Shown one piece after another: positions 7,514 through 13,758 of a DNA stretch of 64,000 nt. This DNA comes from Massilia frigida (lineage in GTDB: Bacteria; Pseudomonadota; Gammaproteobacteria; Burkholderiales; Burkholderiaceae_D), in assembly GCF_011682175.1 (NCBI RefSeq), contig NZ_WHJG01000028.1:1-64000 (forward strand), read 5' to 3'. Made by a program: the position numbers and the translations under genes. The notes under the pieces were generated by a model. The model was not told where the DNA came from. It was given only the letters and a program-made list of their open reading frames with translations, and made no database searches. How positions within the stretch are numbered: position 1 is the stretch's first letter; every line of letters begins with the position of its first letter.

Positions 7514-7624
7514 GCCATTCCCGGTAGGTGGCCGCAAGTGACCTGAATACCAAGCATACGCCCATTTTCCCATCTTGACGAATCGCAAACATAACCATTT
7601 TTCCAAGTGTTTCACATACCATTG

Positions 7625-7695
7625 GTGTAAGGCAAAGCGGCCACTGCCGCAAGGTGCGCCATGAGCGGAACAGCCGCGTAATCGTTGTCTTACAC
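7625..7695. promoter_or_regulatory. Inverted repeat between the GAF gene and the cyanophycin-type operon
   Basis: GTGTAAGGCAA (7625-7635) and TTGTCTTACAC (7685-7695) match in inverted orientation at 10 of 11 positions, 49 bp apart. They lie about 110 and 80 bases before the two divergent starts. This is a candidate operator; no named regulator can be assigned. Confidence 0.35.
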
Positions 7696-7777: not shown

Positions 7778-9256
7778 ATGTCCACGATACAAAACACTGC
7801 GTTCGCCGCGCCACCCGTCATCGCCGCGCGCCCCTGCGCGCCGGCCACGACCAGTTGCCGCGCGCTGTACGATACCCTCTCGCAGGCCGAGGTGCCTGCC
7901 AGCGCCAGCGCCGACGCCCAGGCCTACCTGGTCGGCCAGCTGGCCCGCGCCGCCGCGCAGCCTTGCGACCTGCCCGACTCGCCGGCCGGGCTGGACGCCT
8001 GGATCGCGCCGCGCAACGCCGCCATCGGCGCGCAGTACCAGCAATACCTGGCCGGCCGCCGCGATGGGGCCGCGCGCCGTTTCTTCACCAGCAAGGCGCA
8101 CGCGCTGTACTTCCTGCGCTGCGTGGCGCCGACCAAACTGGTGGACGGCGCCTGGCTGTATGGCGCCCTGCTACGCTGGCAGGAAATCGACTTCCGTCCG
8201 CTGGTCAAGACCTACGTCGAAGAACTGGGCGACGGCCTGCCCGACAAGAACCACGTGGTGCTGTACCAGCGCCTGCTCGACAACCACGGCTGCGCCGAAT
8301 GGGGCGACCTCGATGGCGCCCACTTCACCCAGGGCGCGCTGCAACTGGCGCTGGCGCACGCGGGCGAGAGCTTCCTGCCCGAGATGATCGGCTATAACCT
8401 CGGCTACGAACAACTGCCCCTGCACCTGCTCATCACCGCCTACGAATTGAACGAGCTGGGAATCGATCCGTATTACTTCACCCTGCACATCACGGTCGAC
8501 AACGGCTCGACCGGACACGCGCGCGACGCGGTCGACGCGCTGCAACGGCTCATGGCGCGCGCCGCCGAGCCGGCCGCGTTCTATCGCCGCGTGCGCGAAG
8601 GCTACAAGCTCAATGAGCTGGGCGAAAACACCAACTCGGTGATCGCCTCCTTCGACCTCGAAGAAGAACTGGTGCGCATCCTCGCGGCCAAGGCCGTGAC
8701 CGGACAGAATATGCACAGCGACTACTGCCGCGTGGCCGGCAAGACCATCAACGCCTGGCTGGCCGACCCGGAACAGATTGCCGGCCTGCTGCGCGCCTTC
8801 GAAAGCACCGGTTGGATAAAACGCGGCGCCGCGCCCGGGGAAAGCCGCTTCTGGGGCCTGCTGCAAGGCGACCATGCCGAGATGTTCGGGGTCTTTTCAA
8901 GCTACGAGCAGCAGGTGCTGGCCGACTGGATCGCCTTCCCCGCGCACGCCGCCGACGGCGCCAGCGCCGCGCCGCGCGTAGCCTCGTTCCGCGCGCGCCA
9001 GCGCGCACTGGCGCCGGCCCGCAGTGCGCCGCCGAAAGCCCATGGCGCGCGCGCCCTGATCCGCTATCCGTACGCCGGCCAGGCCGGCGAGCACGAGGCC
9101 GAAAACGACCAGCTGCGCCGTCTCGAACAAGCCGTCGCATTGGCGCCATCGACCAGCGCCGCCATGAAACTGCTGGTGGCGCACATGGCGCCGTCCAGAC
9201 ACCACACCGCCACCGGCCTGATGGCAACGCGCATGTTCGTGCGCCTGCTCGGCTGA
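7778..9256 (+). CDS. Iron-containing redox enzyme, haem-oxygenase-like fold
   Basis: 492 residues from the ATG at 7778; the frame is open upstream but without a good start. The central part matches the haem-oxygenase-like iron enzyme family (Pfam Haem_oxygenas_2): ESFLPEMIGYNLGYE, then ELNELGIDPYYFTLH and HITVDNGSTGHA, giving candidate metal ligands His237, Asp241 and His247, and the late MFGVFSSYEQQVLADWI. Relatives with this fold use a diiron centre to activate oxygen for N-oxygenation, C-C cleavage or desaturation of amino-acid-like substrates. It is first in a four-gene operon with an NPPY methyltransferase, cyanophycinase and cyanophycin synthetase, which suggests it modifies an amino acid or the peptide polymer. 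The reaction is unknown. The first 150 residues or so lack a recognised domain. Confidence 0.8.
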   Translation: MSTIQNTAFAAPPVIAARPCAPATTSCRALYDTLSQAEVPASASADAQAYLVGQLARAAAQPCDLPDSPAGLDAWIAPRNAAIGAQYQQYLAGRRDGAARRFFTSKAHALYFLRCVAPTKLVDGAWLYGALLRWQEIDFRPLVKTYVEELGDGLPDKNHVVLYQRLLDNHGCAEWGDLDGAHFTQGALQLALAHAGESFLPEMIGYNLGYEQLPLHLLITAYELNELGIDPYYFTLHITVDNGSTGHARDAVDALQRLMARAAEPAAFYRRVREGYKLNELGENTNSVIASFDLEEELVRILAAKAVTGQNMHSDYCRVAGKTINAWLADPEQIAGLLRAFESTGWIKRGAAPGESRFWGLLQGDHAEMFGVFSSYEQQVLADWIAFPAHAADGASAAPRVASFRARQRALAPARSAPPKAHGARALIRYPYAGQAGEHEAENDQLRRLEQAVALAPSTSAAMKLLVAHMAPSRHHTATGLMATRMFVRLLG

Positions 9257-9278
9257 CCAACACACCCACAGGAACCGC

Positions 9279-10289
9279 ATGAGCGCCTCCATTATCTCCA
9301 TCGACGGCCACCGGCTCGACCAGGCGCCGCCGATCGCCATCGCCAGCGAGCGGCGCAGGGCCGCGCTGCACGCGCTGGGCTGCGGCCTGAAGCAGCACGG
9401 CTACGCCTTCACCACCGTCACCCCGCTCACGCACAGCCGCGTCAACGCGCGTCTTGCCAACGGCTGGGCGCATGACCTGTCCGGCATTTTCGGCTGGAGC
9501 CGCGCCTTCAAGCCGGCCGTGGTCAACGCCACCCTGATGGACCTGATGCACGAAGCCGACGTGCTCAACCACGACAACGGCATGCTGCGCAGCGTGCTGC
9601 GCGCCTCCACCCTCGACGGCCAGCTGTACCTGCATTCGGCCTACCCGACCAATGCCGCCGACGCCGTGTTCTTCGGCCCCGACACCTACCGCTTCGTGCG
9701 CGCCATGCGTGCCTCGCTGGCGGCGCGCAGCGCCCCGGTCAAGCGCGCGGCGGACATCGGCTGCGGCGCGGGACCCGGCGCCATCACGATCGCCCTGGCC
9801 CATCCGGGCGCCAGCGTATTCGCAGCCGACATCAACCCGGCCGCGCTGGTGCTCACCGACATCAATGCGCGCATCGCCGGCGTCGACAACCTCACCCCCG
9901 TCGAGAGCAACCTGCTGGCCAGCGTCGACGGCCAGTTCGACCTGATCGTCGCCAACCCGCCCTACCTGATCGACCGCGAACAGCGCGCCTACCGCCACGG
10001 CGGCGGCGACCTGGGCGCCGGGCTGTCGGTGGCCATCGTCGACGAGGCCATAAAGCGCCTCGCGCCCGGCGGCACGCTGATGCTGTACACCGGCGCGGCC
10101 ATCGTGGCCAATGCCGATCCCTTCCGCCAGGCGGCCGAACCGCGCCTGCGCGCCGCCGGTTTTCACTGGACCTACGACGAAATCGACCCCGACGTGTTTG
10201 GCGAAGAACTCGACGAAGCGCCGTACGCGTACGCCGACCGGATCGCGGCGGTGTGGCTGTGCGCCACCCGTCCCGACGGCGGCGCATGA
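9279..10289 (+). CDS. Class I SAM-dependent methyltransferase of the PrmC/NPPY type
   Basis: 336 residues; GGAA lies a few bases before the ATG, 22 bp after the preceding gene. The SAM-binding motif I is ADIGCGAGPGA (residues 158-168), an acidic strand follows (FAADINPAAL), and the catalytic motif is NPPY (226-229). NPPY is typical of enzymes that methylate planar amide or amine nitrogens, such as glutamine N5 or adenine N6. About 150 N-terminal residues precede the Rossmann domain and may bind substrate. Its stop overlaps the start of the cyanophycinase gene (ATGA), so the two are translationally coupled. A role in methylating the operon's peptide product is inferred; a housekeeping protein or RNA target is the alternative. 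Confidence 0.85.
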   Translation: MSASIISIDGHRLDQAPPIAIASERRRAALHALGCGLKQHGYAFTTVTPLTHSRVNARLANGWAHDLSGIFGWSRAFKPAVVNATLMDLMHEADVLNHDNGMLRSVLRASTLDGQLYLHSAYPTNAADAVFFGPDTYRFVRAMRASLAARSAPVKRAADIGCGAGPGAITIALAHPGASVFAADINPAALVLTDINARIAGVDNLTPVESNLLASVDGQFDLIVANPPYLIDREQRAYRHGGGDLGAGLSVAIVDEAIKRLAPGGTLMLYTGAAIVANADPFRQAAEPRLRAAGFHWTYDEIDPDVFGEELDEAPYAYADRIAAVWLCATRPDGGA

Positions 10290-11143
10290 GCGGGCCGGCC
10301 CAAGCCGGCACGCGTCGCGCCAGCCTGCTGATCATCGGCGGCGGCGAAGACCGCGAACACGACATGCAGATCCTGGAGCGCTTCGTCGCCCTGTGCGGCG
10401 GGCCGGACAAGCGCATCGTGGTGCTGACGGCGGCGAGCCGCGTGCCCGCCAAAATGTGGACCATCTACGACGCCGCGTTCGGCGGCATGAACGTCGGCAG
10501 CCGCAAGCCGGTGCACGTCGCCAGCCGCCTTGAGGCCAACGACGCCGCCATGGCCGCCGAGGTGGCCATGGCGGACGGCATCTTCCTGACCGGCGGCGAC
10601 CAGAAACGCTTGCTGGCCCAGGCCGGCGGAACCCGGCTGGACGAAGCGCTGCACGCGGCCCTTGCGCGCGGCGCCTGCATCGCCGGCACCAGCGCAGGGG
10701 CGTCTGCCATGTCGGCCCACATGCTGGCCGACGGCAAAGCCGACCTGCATCCGGAAAAAGGCGCGGTCAGCCTGGGCGCCGGCCTCGGCTTCTTGCCGCG
10801 CGTGGTGATCGACCAGCACTTCTCGCAGCGCCACCGGCTGGCGCGCCTGCTGACCGTGGTCGCGCAAAACCCGTATCTGCTCGGCGTGGGCATCGATGAA
10901 GACACGGCGCTGCTGATCGAGGCCGGCGGCAGCATCGAGATCCTGGGCGCCGGCGCCGTCACCGTCGTCGATGGCCGCCACATGGTCTCGAACGTGGCCG
11001 ACATCCGCAACCGCGCGGTGCCCGAAATGGTGGATGTGCGCCTCCACCTGCTGCCATCCGGTTCCCGCTACGGCGCGGCGGGCGACAGCGCCACACCAGC
11101 CGCCTTCAGCGACTTTTTGAACATCGTTACCAACATCGCGTAA
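10286..11143 (+). CDS. cphB: Cyanophycinase (peptidase family S51)
   Basis: 285 residues. Cyanophycinase is an exo-acting serine peptidase that releases beta-Asp-Arg dipeptides from cyanophycin. The nucleophile elbow is GTSAGAS (Ser136), with DQHFSQRHR (His178 region) downstream and the GGGEDRE and FLTGGDQ segments of the family present. No signal peptide is visible, so this is the intracellular form. The start overlaps the methyltransferase stop by four bases, and the synthetase gene starts 5 bp after its stop. Making and degrading enzymes in one transcript point to turnover of a storage polymer, or to trimming of a polymer that the two upstream enzymes modify. Confidence 0.92.
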   Translation: MSGPAQAGTRRASLLIIGGGEDREHDMQILERFVALCGGPDKRIVVLTAASRVPAKMWTIYDAAFGGMNVGSRKPVHVASRLEANDAAMAAEVAMADGIFLTGGDQKRLLAQAGGTRLDEALHAALARGACIAGTSAGASAMSAHMLADGKADLHPEKGAVSLGAGLGFLPRVVIDQHFSQRHRLARLLTVVAQNPYLLGVGIDEDTALLIEAGGSIEILGAGAVTVVDGRHMVSNVADIRNRAVPEMVDVRLHLLPSGSRYGAAGDSATPAAFSDFLNIVTNIA

Positions 11144-11148
11144 ACAAC

Positions 11149-13758
11149 ATGAACATCATCGAACAGCGCATCCTGCGCGGCCCCAATCGCTGGTCCCGGC
11201 TGGCCTGCCTGCAAACCATCGTCGATGCCGGCGAACTGGCGGGCATCGTCCCCACTGACATTCCCCATCTTGCCGATGCACTGCATGCACAATTGCCCGG
11301 CATGGCCACCCGGCGCGGCTACGCAAGCCTGGCGCACGCGGTCGAACAGGTGGCGCTGGAACTGCAAAACATGGCCGGTACGCCGGTCAGCCTTGGCTTG
11401 ACCAGCAAAGTCGATGCGACCCAGTGGCGCATCGTAGTCGCTTACCAGCGCGAGCAGGTCGCCGTCGAGGCGATGGCCCTGGCGCTCGACATGGTGCGGG
11501 CAATGGCGCGCGGCGAAGCGCACGACTGGAGCGAACGCCTGGCAGCGCTGCGGGAAGTGGCCGAACGCGGCGCCATCGGCACCAGCACGGCCGCCGTGGT
11601 CAACGCGGCGCTCGCGCGCGGCATTCCGGCACTACGCCTGACCGACGAAGCCAATCTGTTCCAGCTTGGCTGGGGCAGCCGCCAGAAGCGCCTCCAGGCC
11701 ACCGTCACGGGCGACACCTCCACCATCGCGGTCGGCATCGCCAGCGACAAGCAGCTGACCAAGTCCCTGCTCGACCAGGGCGGTATTCCGGTGCCCAAGG
11801 GTGGCGTGGCCACCACGGCCGATGACGCGCTGGCGCTGGCAACGCGCCTGCGCTTTCCCGTCACCGTCAAACCGCTCGACGCCAACCAGGGCAAGGGCGT
11901 CACCACCGAATGCGCCGATGCCGCCACGGTGCGCACCGCCTTCGATTTCGCGCGCCAGTACGGCCGCCGCGTCATCGTCGAACGCTTCATCGAAGGGCGC
12001 GACTACCGGCTGCTGGTCACCGGCGGCAAGCTCGCCGCCGCCTCGCTGCGCCGCCCTCCTTCGGTCACCGGCGACGGCGCCTCGACCGTGCGCGAACTGG
12101 TCGATCTTGAAAACCGCAATCCGGCGCGCGGCGAGGGCCATGCCAACATCCTCACCCGCCTGCGCCTCGACGAACTGGCGCTGGCACTGCTGGCGAAACA
12201 GGGCTTCACAGCCGATTCGGTGGTGCCGGCCGGCGCCGAGGTGCGATTGCGCGGCAACGCCAACCTGTCCACCGGCGGCACCGCCGAAGACGTCACCGGC
12301 AAGGTGCACCCATCCACCCGCGAGATGTGCATCCGCGCCGCCCAACTCATCGGACTGGACGTGGCGGGCATCGACGTGATCTGCGCTGACATTTCGCTGT
12401 GCCTGCGCGAGCAGCGCGGCGCCGTGATCGAAGTGAACGCCGCTCCCGGCATCCGCATGCACGAATACCCGAGCCACGGCCAGGCGCGCAACGCCGGCGA
12501 CGCGATCGTGGAGGCGATGTTCGGCGACAGTGACGGCCGCATTCCCGTCATCGCCGTCACCGGCACCAACGGCAAGACCACGACCTCGCTGATGATCGCG
12601 CACGCCGCGCGGCTGGCCGGCCTGCGCACCGGGGTGACCACCACCGAGGGCGTCTTCATCGACGGCCACCGGATCATCGACGGCGACTGCGCCGGCTACC
12701 ATTCGGCGCGCACCCTGCTCGCCACCCCGGGCGTCGATATCGCCGTGCTGGAAACGGCACGCGGCGGCATCTTGAAGCGCGGCCTGGCCTTCGACCGCTG
12801 CGCGGTGGCGGTGGTGCTCAACGTCTCGGCCGACCATCTGGGGCTCGACGGCGTCGAGACGGTGGCCGAACTGGCGGCAATCAAGGCGGTGGTGGCCAAT
12901 AGCGCCGCGCGTGCAGTGGTGCTCAATGCCGACGACCACCTGTGCGTGGCGATGAGCGCCCAGGTATCGGCCGATGTGGAACGCATCTTCTTTTCCATGG
13001 ACCCGGACAACCCGGTCCTGCTGCGCCACCTCGGCAACGGCGGACGCGCCGCGTACTTCCAGGACAATGCGCTGATCCTGGAAGACGGCTCGCGCAGGCT
13101 GGAACTGCTGCGCGCCGAGCGCATGCCGGCCAGCCTGCACGGCCACGCGCGCTACAACGTCGCCAATGCGCTGGCGGCGGCCGCCGCCCTGATGGGGGCC
13201 GGCTTCACCCCTGCGCAGACCGTCGCGGCGCTGTCCACCTTCGTGTCCGACCGCGACAGCAATCCGCTGCGCTCGAACGTCTACAGCGCGCGCGGCGTGA
13301 CCATCGTGGTCGATTACGCACACAACCCGGCGGCCTACGCGGCCATGGCGTCGATGGCGCAGTCGCTCTCTAGCGGACGCCGCATCGCCGTACTCACCTG
13401 CCCCGGCGACCGGCGCGACGCCGACCTGCTCGACATCGGCCACACCTGCGCCGAAGGATTCGACGAACTGTTCGTGTACGAAGCCGATCCGCGCGGACGC
13501 GCCAGCGGCGAGACGGCGCGCACCATTCTCGATGGCGCGCGCCGCGCCGGGAAACAAGAACACCTGCTGCACGCCATCGTGCCGGTCAGCGATGCCTTCA
13601 CGGCGGCGATGGAGCGCTGCCAGCCGGGCGACGTGCTGGTATTCGCCTGCGGATCAAGCGCCAGCGCGCTGCGCGAAACGGCGCGCTACGTCGATTCGCC
13701 TGCGGCTGCGCCTGCTCCCGCGCCATCAGTACATCAGGCGACCGTCCCGCTTGAATAA
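11149..13758 (+). CDS. cphA: Cyanophycin synthetase family ATP-grasp/Mur-ligase enzyme
   Basis: 869 residues, the length of full CphA1 enzymes. CphA adds Asp to the polymer backbone and then Arg to the Asp side chain, one ATP each. Domain order is as expected: an N-terminal domain opening with LRGPNRWS, an ATP-grasp domain (VTVKPLDANQGKGVTT, RRVIVERFIEGRDYRLLV, IEVNAAPGIRMHEYP; about residues 200-460), and a Mur-ligase domain with P-loop GTNGKTTT (from residue 472), ETARGGILKRGL and NVSADHLGL. The Mur segment around GDCAGYHSAR differs from the forms I know best, so the amino acids used should not be assumed. A Pro/Ala-rich tail ends the protein. The 3' end overlaps the convergent substrate-binding protein gene by 33 bp. 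No second cphA copy is present. Confidence 0.9.
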   Translation: MNIIEQRILRGPNRWSRLACLQTIVDAGELAGIVPTDIPHLADALHAQLPGMATRRGYASLAHAVEQVALELQNMAGTPVSLGLTSKVDATQWRIVVAYQREQVAVEAMALALDMVRAMARGEAHDWSERLAALREVAERGAIGTSTAAVVNAALARGIPALRLTDEANLFQLGWGSRQKRLQATVTGDTSTIAVGIASDKQLTKSLLDQGGIPVPKGGVATTADDALALATRLRFPVTVKPLDANQGKGVTTECADAATVRTAFDFARQYGRRVIVERFIEGRDYRLLVTGGKLAAASLRRPPSVTGDGASTVRELVDLENRNPARGEGHANILTRLRLDELALALLAKQGFTADSVVPAGAEVRLRGNANLSTGGTAEDVTGKVHPSTREMCIRAAQLIGLDVAGIDVICADISLCLREQRGAVIEVNAAPGIRMHEYPSHGQARNAGDAIVEAMFGDSDGRIPVIAVTGTNGKTTTSLMIAHAARLAGLRTGVTTTEGVFIDGHRIIDGDCAGYHSARTLLATPGVDIAVLETARGGILKRGLAFDRCAVAVVLNVSADHLGLDGVETVAELAAIKAVVANSAARAVVLNADDHLCVAMSAQVSADVERIFFSMDPDNPVLLRHLGNGGRAAYFQDNALILEDGSRRLELLRAERMPASLHGHARYNVANALAAAAALMGAGFTPAQTVAALSTFVSDRDSNPLRSNVYSARGVTIVVDYAHNPAAYAAMASMAQSLSSGRRIAVLTCPGDRRDADLLDIGHTCAEGFDELFVYEADPRGRASGETARTILDGARRAGKQEHLLHAIVPVSDAFTAAMERCQPGDVLVFACGSSASALRETARYVDSPAAAPAPAPSVHQATVPLE

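Follow-up and report, generated by a model that had tools for sequence, protein, structure and literature searches.

The window analysed here, a stretch of 64,000 nucleotides from Massilia frigida (contig NZ_WHJG01000028.1, positions 1 to 64,000), carries a four-gene operon (nt 7778–13758) coding, in this order, for an iron enzyme (HDO), a methyltransferase (MT), a cyanophycinase (CphB) and a cyanophycin synthetase (CphA). The HDO-CphA grouping is a genuine, conserved functional one, and the linkage of cyanophycin genes with HDO and MT recurs in a second bacterial class, with a second type of HDO. Taken as a whole, the operon is read here, with an even chance of being right, as a stress module, in which a DtpC-family diiron oxygenase is paired with an N-methyltransferase, joined to a set of genes for making and breaking cyanophycin. 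The features concerned are the following:

7598–7670, no strand: site at which close relatives have iaaA (isoaspartyl peptidase, IaaA) upstream of HDO; a net 0.93 kb is absent
7778–9256, + strand: HDO, DtpC-family iron-containing redox enzyme as judged from sequence, 492 amino acids (aa); PF14518, 96.2 bits (cut-off 28.9)
8222–8518, + strand: candidate metal ligands of HDO (E149, H159, H237, D241, H247), unchanged in all 33 rows of the alignment
9279–10289, + strand: MT, class I N-methyltransferase-like, NPPY motif from N226, 336 aa; PF05175, 54.1 bits (cut-off 23)
10286–11143, + strand: CphB, cyanophycinase, 285 aa; TIGR02069, 255.6 bits (curated cut-off 126.6)
11149–13758, + strand: CphA, second-clade cyanophycin synthetase, 869 aa; TIGR02068, 952.3 bits (curated cut-off 850)
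12682–12711, + strand: GDCAGYHSAR segment in the Mur domain of CphA, from residue 512, a clade signature

All four open reading frames (ORFs) lie on the + strand, with intergenic gaps of 22, −4 and 5 bp. Coordinates and protein families were re-derived as given in a preliminary description of the stretch, and His237, Asp241 and His247 of HDO, the NPPY motif of MT and the GDCAGYHSAR segment of CphA were all located at the positions it had reported. Promoter and terminator scans of the window returned scores no better than those of shuffles. The same description spoke of a single synthetase, which proved false genome-wide: the operon CphA is an extra synthetase, since an ordinary cphA-cphA' pair is found on another contig (C177).

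HDO is present in 11 of the 17 genomes of the genus and the order HDO-MT-CphB-CphA, which the preliminary description had proposed to look for in other genomes, was found in 8 of them, in one of which (G211) CphA is a 608-aa protein without the ATP-grasp part. Two genomes (G200 and G209) have an HDO-CphA arrangement with a convergent CphB and no MT at the locus. Absence of the first two genes from close relatives had been named beforehand as an argument against a modified polymer, and it was seen at these two loci for MT, while HDO is kept. The family was sampled with 294 genomes, searched at E ≤ 1e-60 for HDO and E ≤ 1e-225 for CphA of the window's clade (second-clade CphA); HDO was found in 81 of them and this CphA in 47, all 47 having also HDO (Fisher p = 9e-33, a value overstating the number of independent events because the sampled genomes are related to one another). 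The two genes lie within 10 kb of each other in 45 of the 47 genomes, against an expectation of about 0.3 of 45 for genes placed at random in 6 Mb of genome, and CphA is downstream of HDO, on the same strand and at ≤3.5 kb, in 43 of the 47. The exceptions to the 10-kb linkage are G211, whose operon CphA falls under the threshold, and G695, in which the matches are on separate contigs. At the same threshold, second-clade CphA is absent from 34 of the 81 HDO genomes.

A contig scan retrieved at least 559 confirmed HDO relatives, of which the best 80 loci were used, a set leaning to the window's own group because it holds the best matches only; counts were taken from the tblastn table, the gene calls leaving L113, L115, L120 and L135 unlabelled. 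CphA was found in the stretch around HDO in 56 of these 80 loci and not in the remaining 24, in 20 of which MT adjoins HDO. Gene order and strand differ between genera, with the genes still clustered: Pseudoduganella flava, lurida and namucuonensis show a one-run layout HDO-MT-IaaA-CphB-CphA, and in many Massilia HDO-CphA stands opposite CphA-CphB-IaaA. A gene resembling, by eye, an amino-acid permease precedes HDO-CphA in many Massilia (e.g., L062, L063 and L070), its cluster occurring in 30 loci. At L056:7343-8768 (G214) the HDO homologue is broken across two reading frames, and a search for CphA next to it found none.

The second class is that of the Alphaproteobacteria. Plasmid pKN1 of Sphingobium yanoikuyae carries, in one run, CphA-IaaA-CphB-MT-short HDO-dicarboxylate symporter. 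Among 149 genomes of family f252, which belongs to the same phylum and to a class other than the window's and probably consists of sphingomonads, MT was found in 15, CphA in 8 and both in 7 (Fisher p 1.7e-7, genomes treated as unrelated). MT and CphA lie within 2 kb in five of the seven, with a short HDO between them in four (L181, L196, L197 and L199). As for the other stretches, L198 has MT near CphA and no HDO within the stretch, L200 and L201 have HDO and MT divergent and distant from CphA, L202 has CphA and a short HDO without MT, and the other seven MT stretches examined from the family (L203–L209) carry MT alone. The short HDO (about 300 aa, PF14518) contains E-x9-H and H-x3-D-x2-H and gave no significant blastp match with the long HDO, and the CphA proteins of the alphaproteobacterial groupings are 40–46% identical to that of the window. 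The neighbour of the module in Komagataeibacter and Variovorax is a protein whose ATP-grasp similarity is weak and does not reach the cut-off. A Legionella plasmid encodes a fusion protein in which MT comes after a domain of the DDAH/arginine-deiminase family (two Pfam models exceed their cut-offs); the next gene is a short HDO.

As judged from sequence, HDO is a member of the DtpC family. In PMC13232832 (June 2026) an HDO-domain protein of Acinetobacter baumannii, DtpC, is described that serves survival of drying redundantly with the catalase KatE; the substitutions E143A, H153A and H232A each abolish protection, and the authors leave a scavenging role open. The window HDO matched three A. 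baumannii records with 35.2% identity over 90% of its length (E 1e-75). Read from the second Met, the A. baumannii ORF has 469 aa with E143, H153 and H232 in place, and 54 bp separate its end from a 714-aa ORF, matching the dtpC-katE gap given in PMC13232832; the 714-aa ORF is accordingly taken as katE. By sequence context and by alignment with Acinetobacter plasmid homologues, the three residues correspond to E149, H159 and H237 of HDO, which are invariant, together with D241 and H247, in all 33 aligned relatives. The metal site of the iron enzyme looks intact. Five of six SznF-type ligand positions could be placed, the spacing being H-x3-D-x5-H in HDO versus H-x3-D-x2-H in SznF, and the site may be diiron. 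The best PDB fold matches of the AF2 model of HDO (mean pLDDT 83.9) were HrmI, SznF and RohS, all N-oxygenases (E 0.0079–0.038, probability 1.00, low TM scores), and on this model HDO may oxygenate nitrogen. Compared by sequence with solved structures, the single protein gave no match at E ≤ 1 and the profile gave one (E 0.34). Distant HDO matches were also found elsewhere in the same genome, in proteins of 1239 and 1259 aa (L023:5873-9592 on contig C197 and L024:5967-9746 on contig C110, respectively); the former joins LodA_N, LodA_C and Haem_oxygenas_2 domains in a single chain, and each is followed by what appears to be a LodB-type flavoprotein.

The fold of MT points to an N-type methyltransferase, in line with the nitrogen-directed activity first proposed from its NPPY motif: profile and AF2 model (pLDDT 83.0) matched gentamicin GenN, RsmC, PrmC, a carbamoyl N-methyltransferase and AerE, which acts on asparagine side chains. 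PrmC-type NCBIfam models match MT, all below their cut-offs, the score with the model of PrmC release-factor methyltransferase being 71.8 (TIGR03534, curated cut-off 199.1).

MT (E ≤ 1e-40) was found in 18 of 398 sampled genomes of the phylum, with HDO at ≤1.5 kb in 15 of the 18, and in 35 of 40 HDO genomes searched. All 12 Pseudomonas and Stutzerimonas genomes tested have HDO next to MT, and in none of the 12 was a true CphA found, the best matches (E 4e-44 to 5e-42) covering the ATP-grasp part alone and probably representing N-acetylglutaminylglutamine synthetase. HDO-MT is therefore a module in its own right, being adjacent in CphA-less genomes and MT being so frequent in those with HDO, and action on the polymer is not required. 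HDO occurs without an adjoining MT at many loci. Some of the unlinked MT genes lie, by eye, near genes for small hydrophilic, Mn-catalase and general-stress proteins. A run of PIG-L deacetylase, small methyltransferase and glycosyltransferase genes recurs near HDO or MT in different genera (L088:210-2358, L192:7409-10579 and L141:8104-11114), with an acyl-CoA dehydrogenase in the run of L141 and, by eye, in that of L192.

Plain cyanophycin, made of Asp and Arg, is the most likely polymer, a reading from sequence that fits because the Asp-site residues tested in CphA are kept, CphB is present and IaaA is found in relatives. According to our own alignment-based residue mapping, window CphA keeps K201, K241, R287, R301, N372, S374, D409, E428, R436, K476, D562 and H563. 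The Asp-binding and ATP residues of both domains (numbering as in the portions available of PMC9427784 and PMC9262961) are kept in 81 of 81 clade relatives, as is R436 by motif counts; a modified amino acid would be the less likely substrate. The counterpart of H267 is Q247, Gln being found also in 73 of the 81 relatives and in the ordinary CphA of the genome, and that of E215 is G196, at a position that is not conserved and where the ordinary CphA has Ser. In the N-domain the HxxEH motif is incomplete (H63, E66, Q67; the alignment is gappy there), which, following the available text of PMC9262961, would predict primer dependence of the window CphA.

Clade-specific changes were seen in the Mur domain, namely GY[WHR]SAR and NPLR[ST]N. 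The GDCAGYHSAR segment, noted beforehand as unusual, turned out to be a signature of the whole clade, including CphAs tied to cyanophycinase and isoaspartyl peptidase, and was rejected as a mark of a special substrate of the window enzyme. The PLRSN change was likewise rejected as a specificity change, since it flanks an ATP-binding Arg which is kept and equals R731 of TeCphA1. Residues 775–784 of CphA, which we take to be the counterpart of the MurE DNPR motif, gave no reading of the side-chain amino acid, because in this stretch the ordinary CphA of the genome differs from cyanobacterial CphA as well. A FastTree phylogeny of 82 full-length CphAs (midpoint root) unites those whose genes directly follow HDO in a single group (33 rows, support 100), and window CphA groups with CphAs behind CphB. 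The iaaA gene (PF01112) is directly upstream of HDO in six of the eight genus genomes with the four-gene order; in the window a net ~0.93 kb is missing at this place, between nt 7597 and 7671, and no IaaA was found in the window's genome at E ≤ 1e-15.

That a stress module has been joined to cyanophycin turnover is, in our judgement, rather probable. CphA and CphB, with IaaA in most close relatives, would form the make-and-break set for cyanophycin, and HDO and MT would successively modify a nitrogen atom in a small molecule, in an order that may be either, yielding a protective metabolite made during starvation or drying; the operon may be expressed under stress in the window organism. In Acinetobacter, plasmid-borne HDO copies are found near catalase, DUF421 and trehalose-6-phosphate synthase genes, and a copy on a Comamonadaceae plasmid lies near YsnF, YidB and ferritin-like genes. 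We somewhat favour a small molecule over the polymer as the substrate. This could be arginine or a derivative, stored as cyanophycin and released by CphB and IaaA; arginine is preferred because of the Legionella DDAH-family fusion, the N-oxygenase fold neighbours and CphA itself, and an arginine-derived product is possible but doubtful. Several observations weigh against this reading as a whole. The three arginine clues are each weak alone, and no fold match of HDO at E ≤ 0.001 was found among PDB structures. MT is apart from HDO in three of the 18 sampled genomes, and in most Massilia with HDO-CphA it is not adjacent to HDO and lies elsewhere in the genome, while three further short HDOs on Sphingobium/Novosphingobium plasmids have neither MT nor CphA alongside (0 of 3). 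Finally, searches of the three A. baumannii records returned no CphA at E ≤ 1e-40 and no match covering 80% of the length of MT; DtpC protects A. baumannii all the same, and a joint metabolite may therefore be unneeded.

This last point also speaks for another explanation, in which HDO alone scavenges peroxide, oxygen or iron, MT has a separate stress role and a shared growth phase accounts for the proximity of cphA. The scavenging left open for DtpC in the available text of PMC13232832, the many HDO loci without adjoining MT and the stress-gene neighbours all agree with it, but 15 of 18 genomes have HDO next to MT, an adjacency that occurs with two types of HDO, characterised HDOs use amino or fatty acids, and a shared growth phase alone predicts no operon-level linkage in two classes; we regard it as somewhat unlikely. 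That the genes are chance neighbours, functionally unrelated, might be argued from the variable order and strand between genera and from the 24 of the best 80 HDO loci without CphA in the stretch. However, the 10-kb linkage in 45 of 47 genomes, far above the ~0.3 expected, and the second occurrence in another class (f252) in our view already refute this practically negligible reading, and the shuffled layouts still hold the genes together.

Alternatively, HDO might hydroxylate and MT methylate arginine, another amino acid or a dipeptide, with this clade of CphA polymerising the modified unit into a new polymer. The tightness of the operon, the clade-specific Mur changes, the single clade formed by HDO-linked CphAs (33 rows) and the second occurrence of the grouping (pKN1, f252) would suit such a role; the HDO-MT pairs without CphA in 12 of 12 Pseudomonas/Stutzerimonas, the location of MT elsewhere in the genome in most HDO-CphA Massilia, the occurrence of this Mur signature also in CphAs associated with CphB and IaaA and the retention of the ATP-binding Arg in NPLR speak against it, and we consider it unlikely. 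The oxidised and N-methylated polymer of the preliminary description is thus not the default, HDO-MT being common without CphA, the HDO family having a stress phenotype in A. baumannii and the Asp site being kept. In a bolder form of the stress-module reading, to which we give little credence, cyanophycin would be an arginine battery for a SznE/SznF-like pathway, HDO-MT having been joined to CphA at least twice and the chemistry being related to that of DtpC-dependent tolerance. MT would methylate, and HDO hydroxylate, a guanidine nitrogen of arginine coming from, or loaded onto, the polymer, and the resulting N-hydroxy/N-methyl guanidine metabolite would protect in drying and rewetting.

Domain losses among the relatives of CphA offer a second testable point, the division of a two-headed polymerase into half-enzymes. 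Among the 101 CphA sequences with a length of 550 aa or more, at least five of them duplicates, 82 keep both catalytic motif sets, as window CphA does, 15 are without ATP-grasp motifs and keep those of Mur, and two show the reverse; the remaining two are the CphA' of the window's genome and one protein deviating from a single ATP-grasp pattern. The loci concerned are L080:11494-16071, L061:12368-14521, L053, L073, L075, L079, L086, L092, L097, L099 and L112. Adjacent CphA genes of Massilia solisilvae (L080) show reciprocal losses, which suggests a split cyanophycin synthetase. At L061 the Mur motifs are missing, and a second gene of the same genome (G242) is without the ATP-grasp stretch.

The grouping makes nitrogen storage, the known role of cyanophycin, and stress survival appear linked in two bacterial classes and with two HDO types. 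If this is true, cyanophycin is predicted to contribute to surviving drying, and the cluster provides a culturable system in which to look, around the metabolism of arginine and aspartate, for what a stress HDO acts on. The preliminary description knew of no pathway with this four-gene set, and among the papers that our literature searches listed none was seen to describe this set or to connect cyanophycin with an HDO, which does not amount to absence from print. Each part is of a known kind; it is the conserved union, its recurrence and its tie to a stress HDO that are not ordinary.

Compared with known systems, HDO is close to DtpC in identity (35% over 90% of length), in the counterparts of E143, H153 and H232 and in the PF14518 fold type, but DtpC stands beside katE and the A. 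baumannii records yielded neither MT nor CphA, whereas the window HDO is in a cyanophycin operon with MT. In the streptozotocin pathway the arginine guanidino-methyltransferase SznE is paired with the HDO SznF (available portions of PMC11705231 and PMC13108848), and the window resembles it in having a methyltransferase together with an HDO and in an E-x9-H corresponding to E215/H225 of SznF, which is also among the best fold matches. Differently from SznF, the window HDO has no cupin domain, no biosynthetic cluster and a weak fold score. Domain loss is a theme shared with CphA2, which lost its Mur activity (PMC9262961, in the portions available), and with CphA'; window CphA instead keeps both motif sets, and in relatives with a loss it is mostly the ATP-grasp motifs that are gone, the mirror case. 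A further known setting is that of the cphA-cphB-iaaA/iadA clusters, in whose available description (PMC10206079) CphA likewise stands beside cyanophycinase, with IaaA as in the close relatives of the window, and where, according to one survey, cyanophycinase is recognised in just 3% of beta-proteobacterial cphA1 genomes. With respect to these clusters, the window adds HDO and MT, neither of which is mentioned in the portions available, and its CphA belongs to a second clade, the ordinary pair being located elsewhere in the genome.

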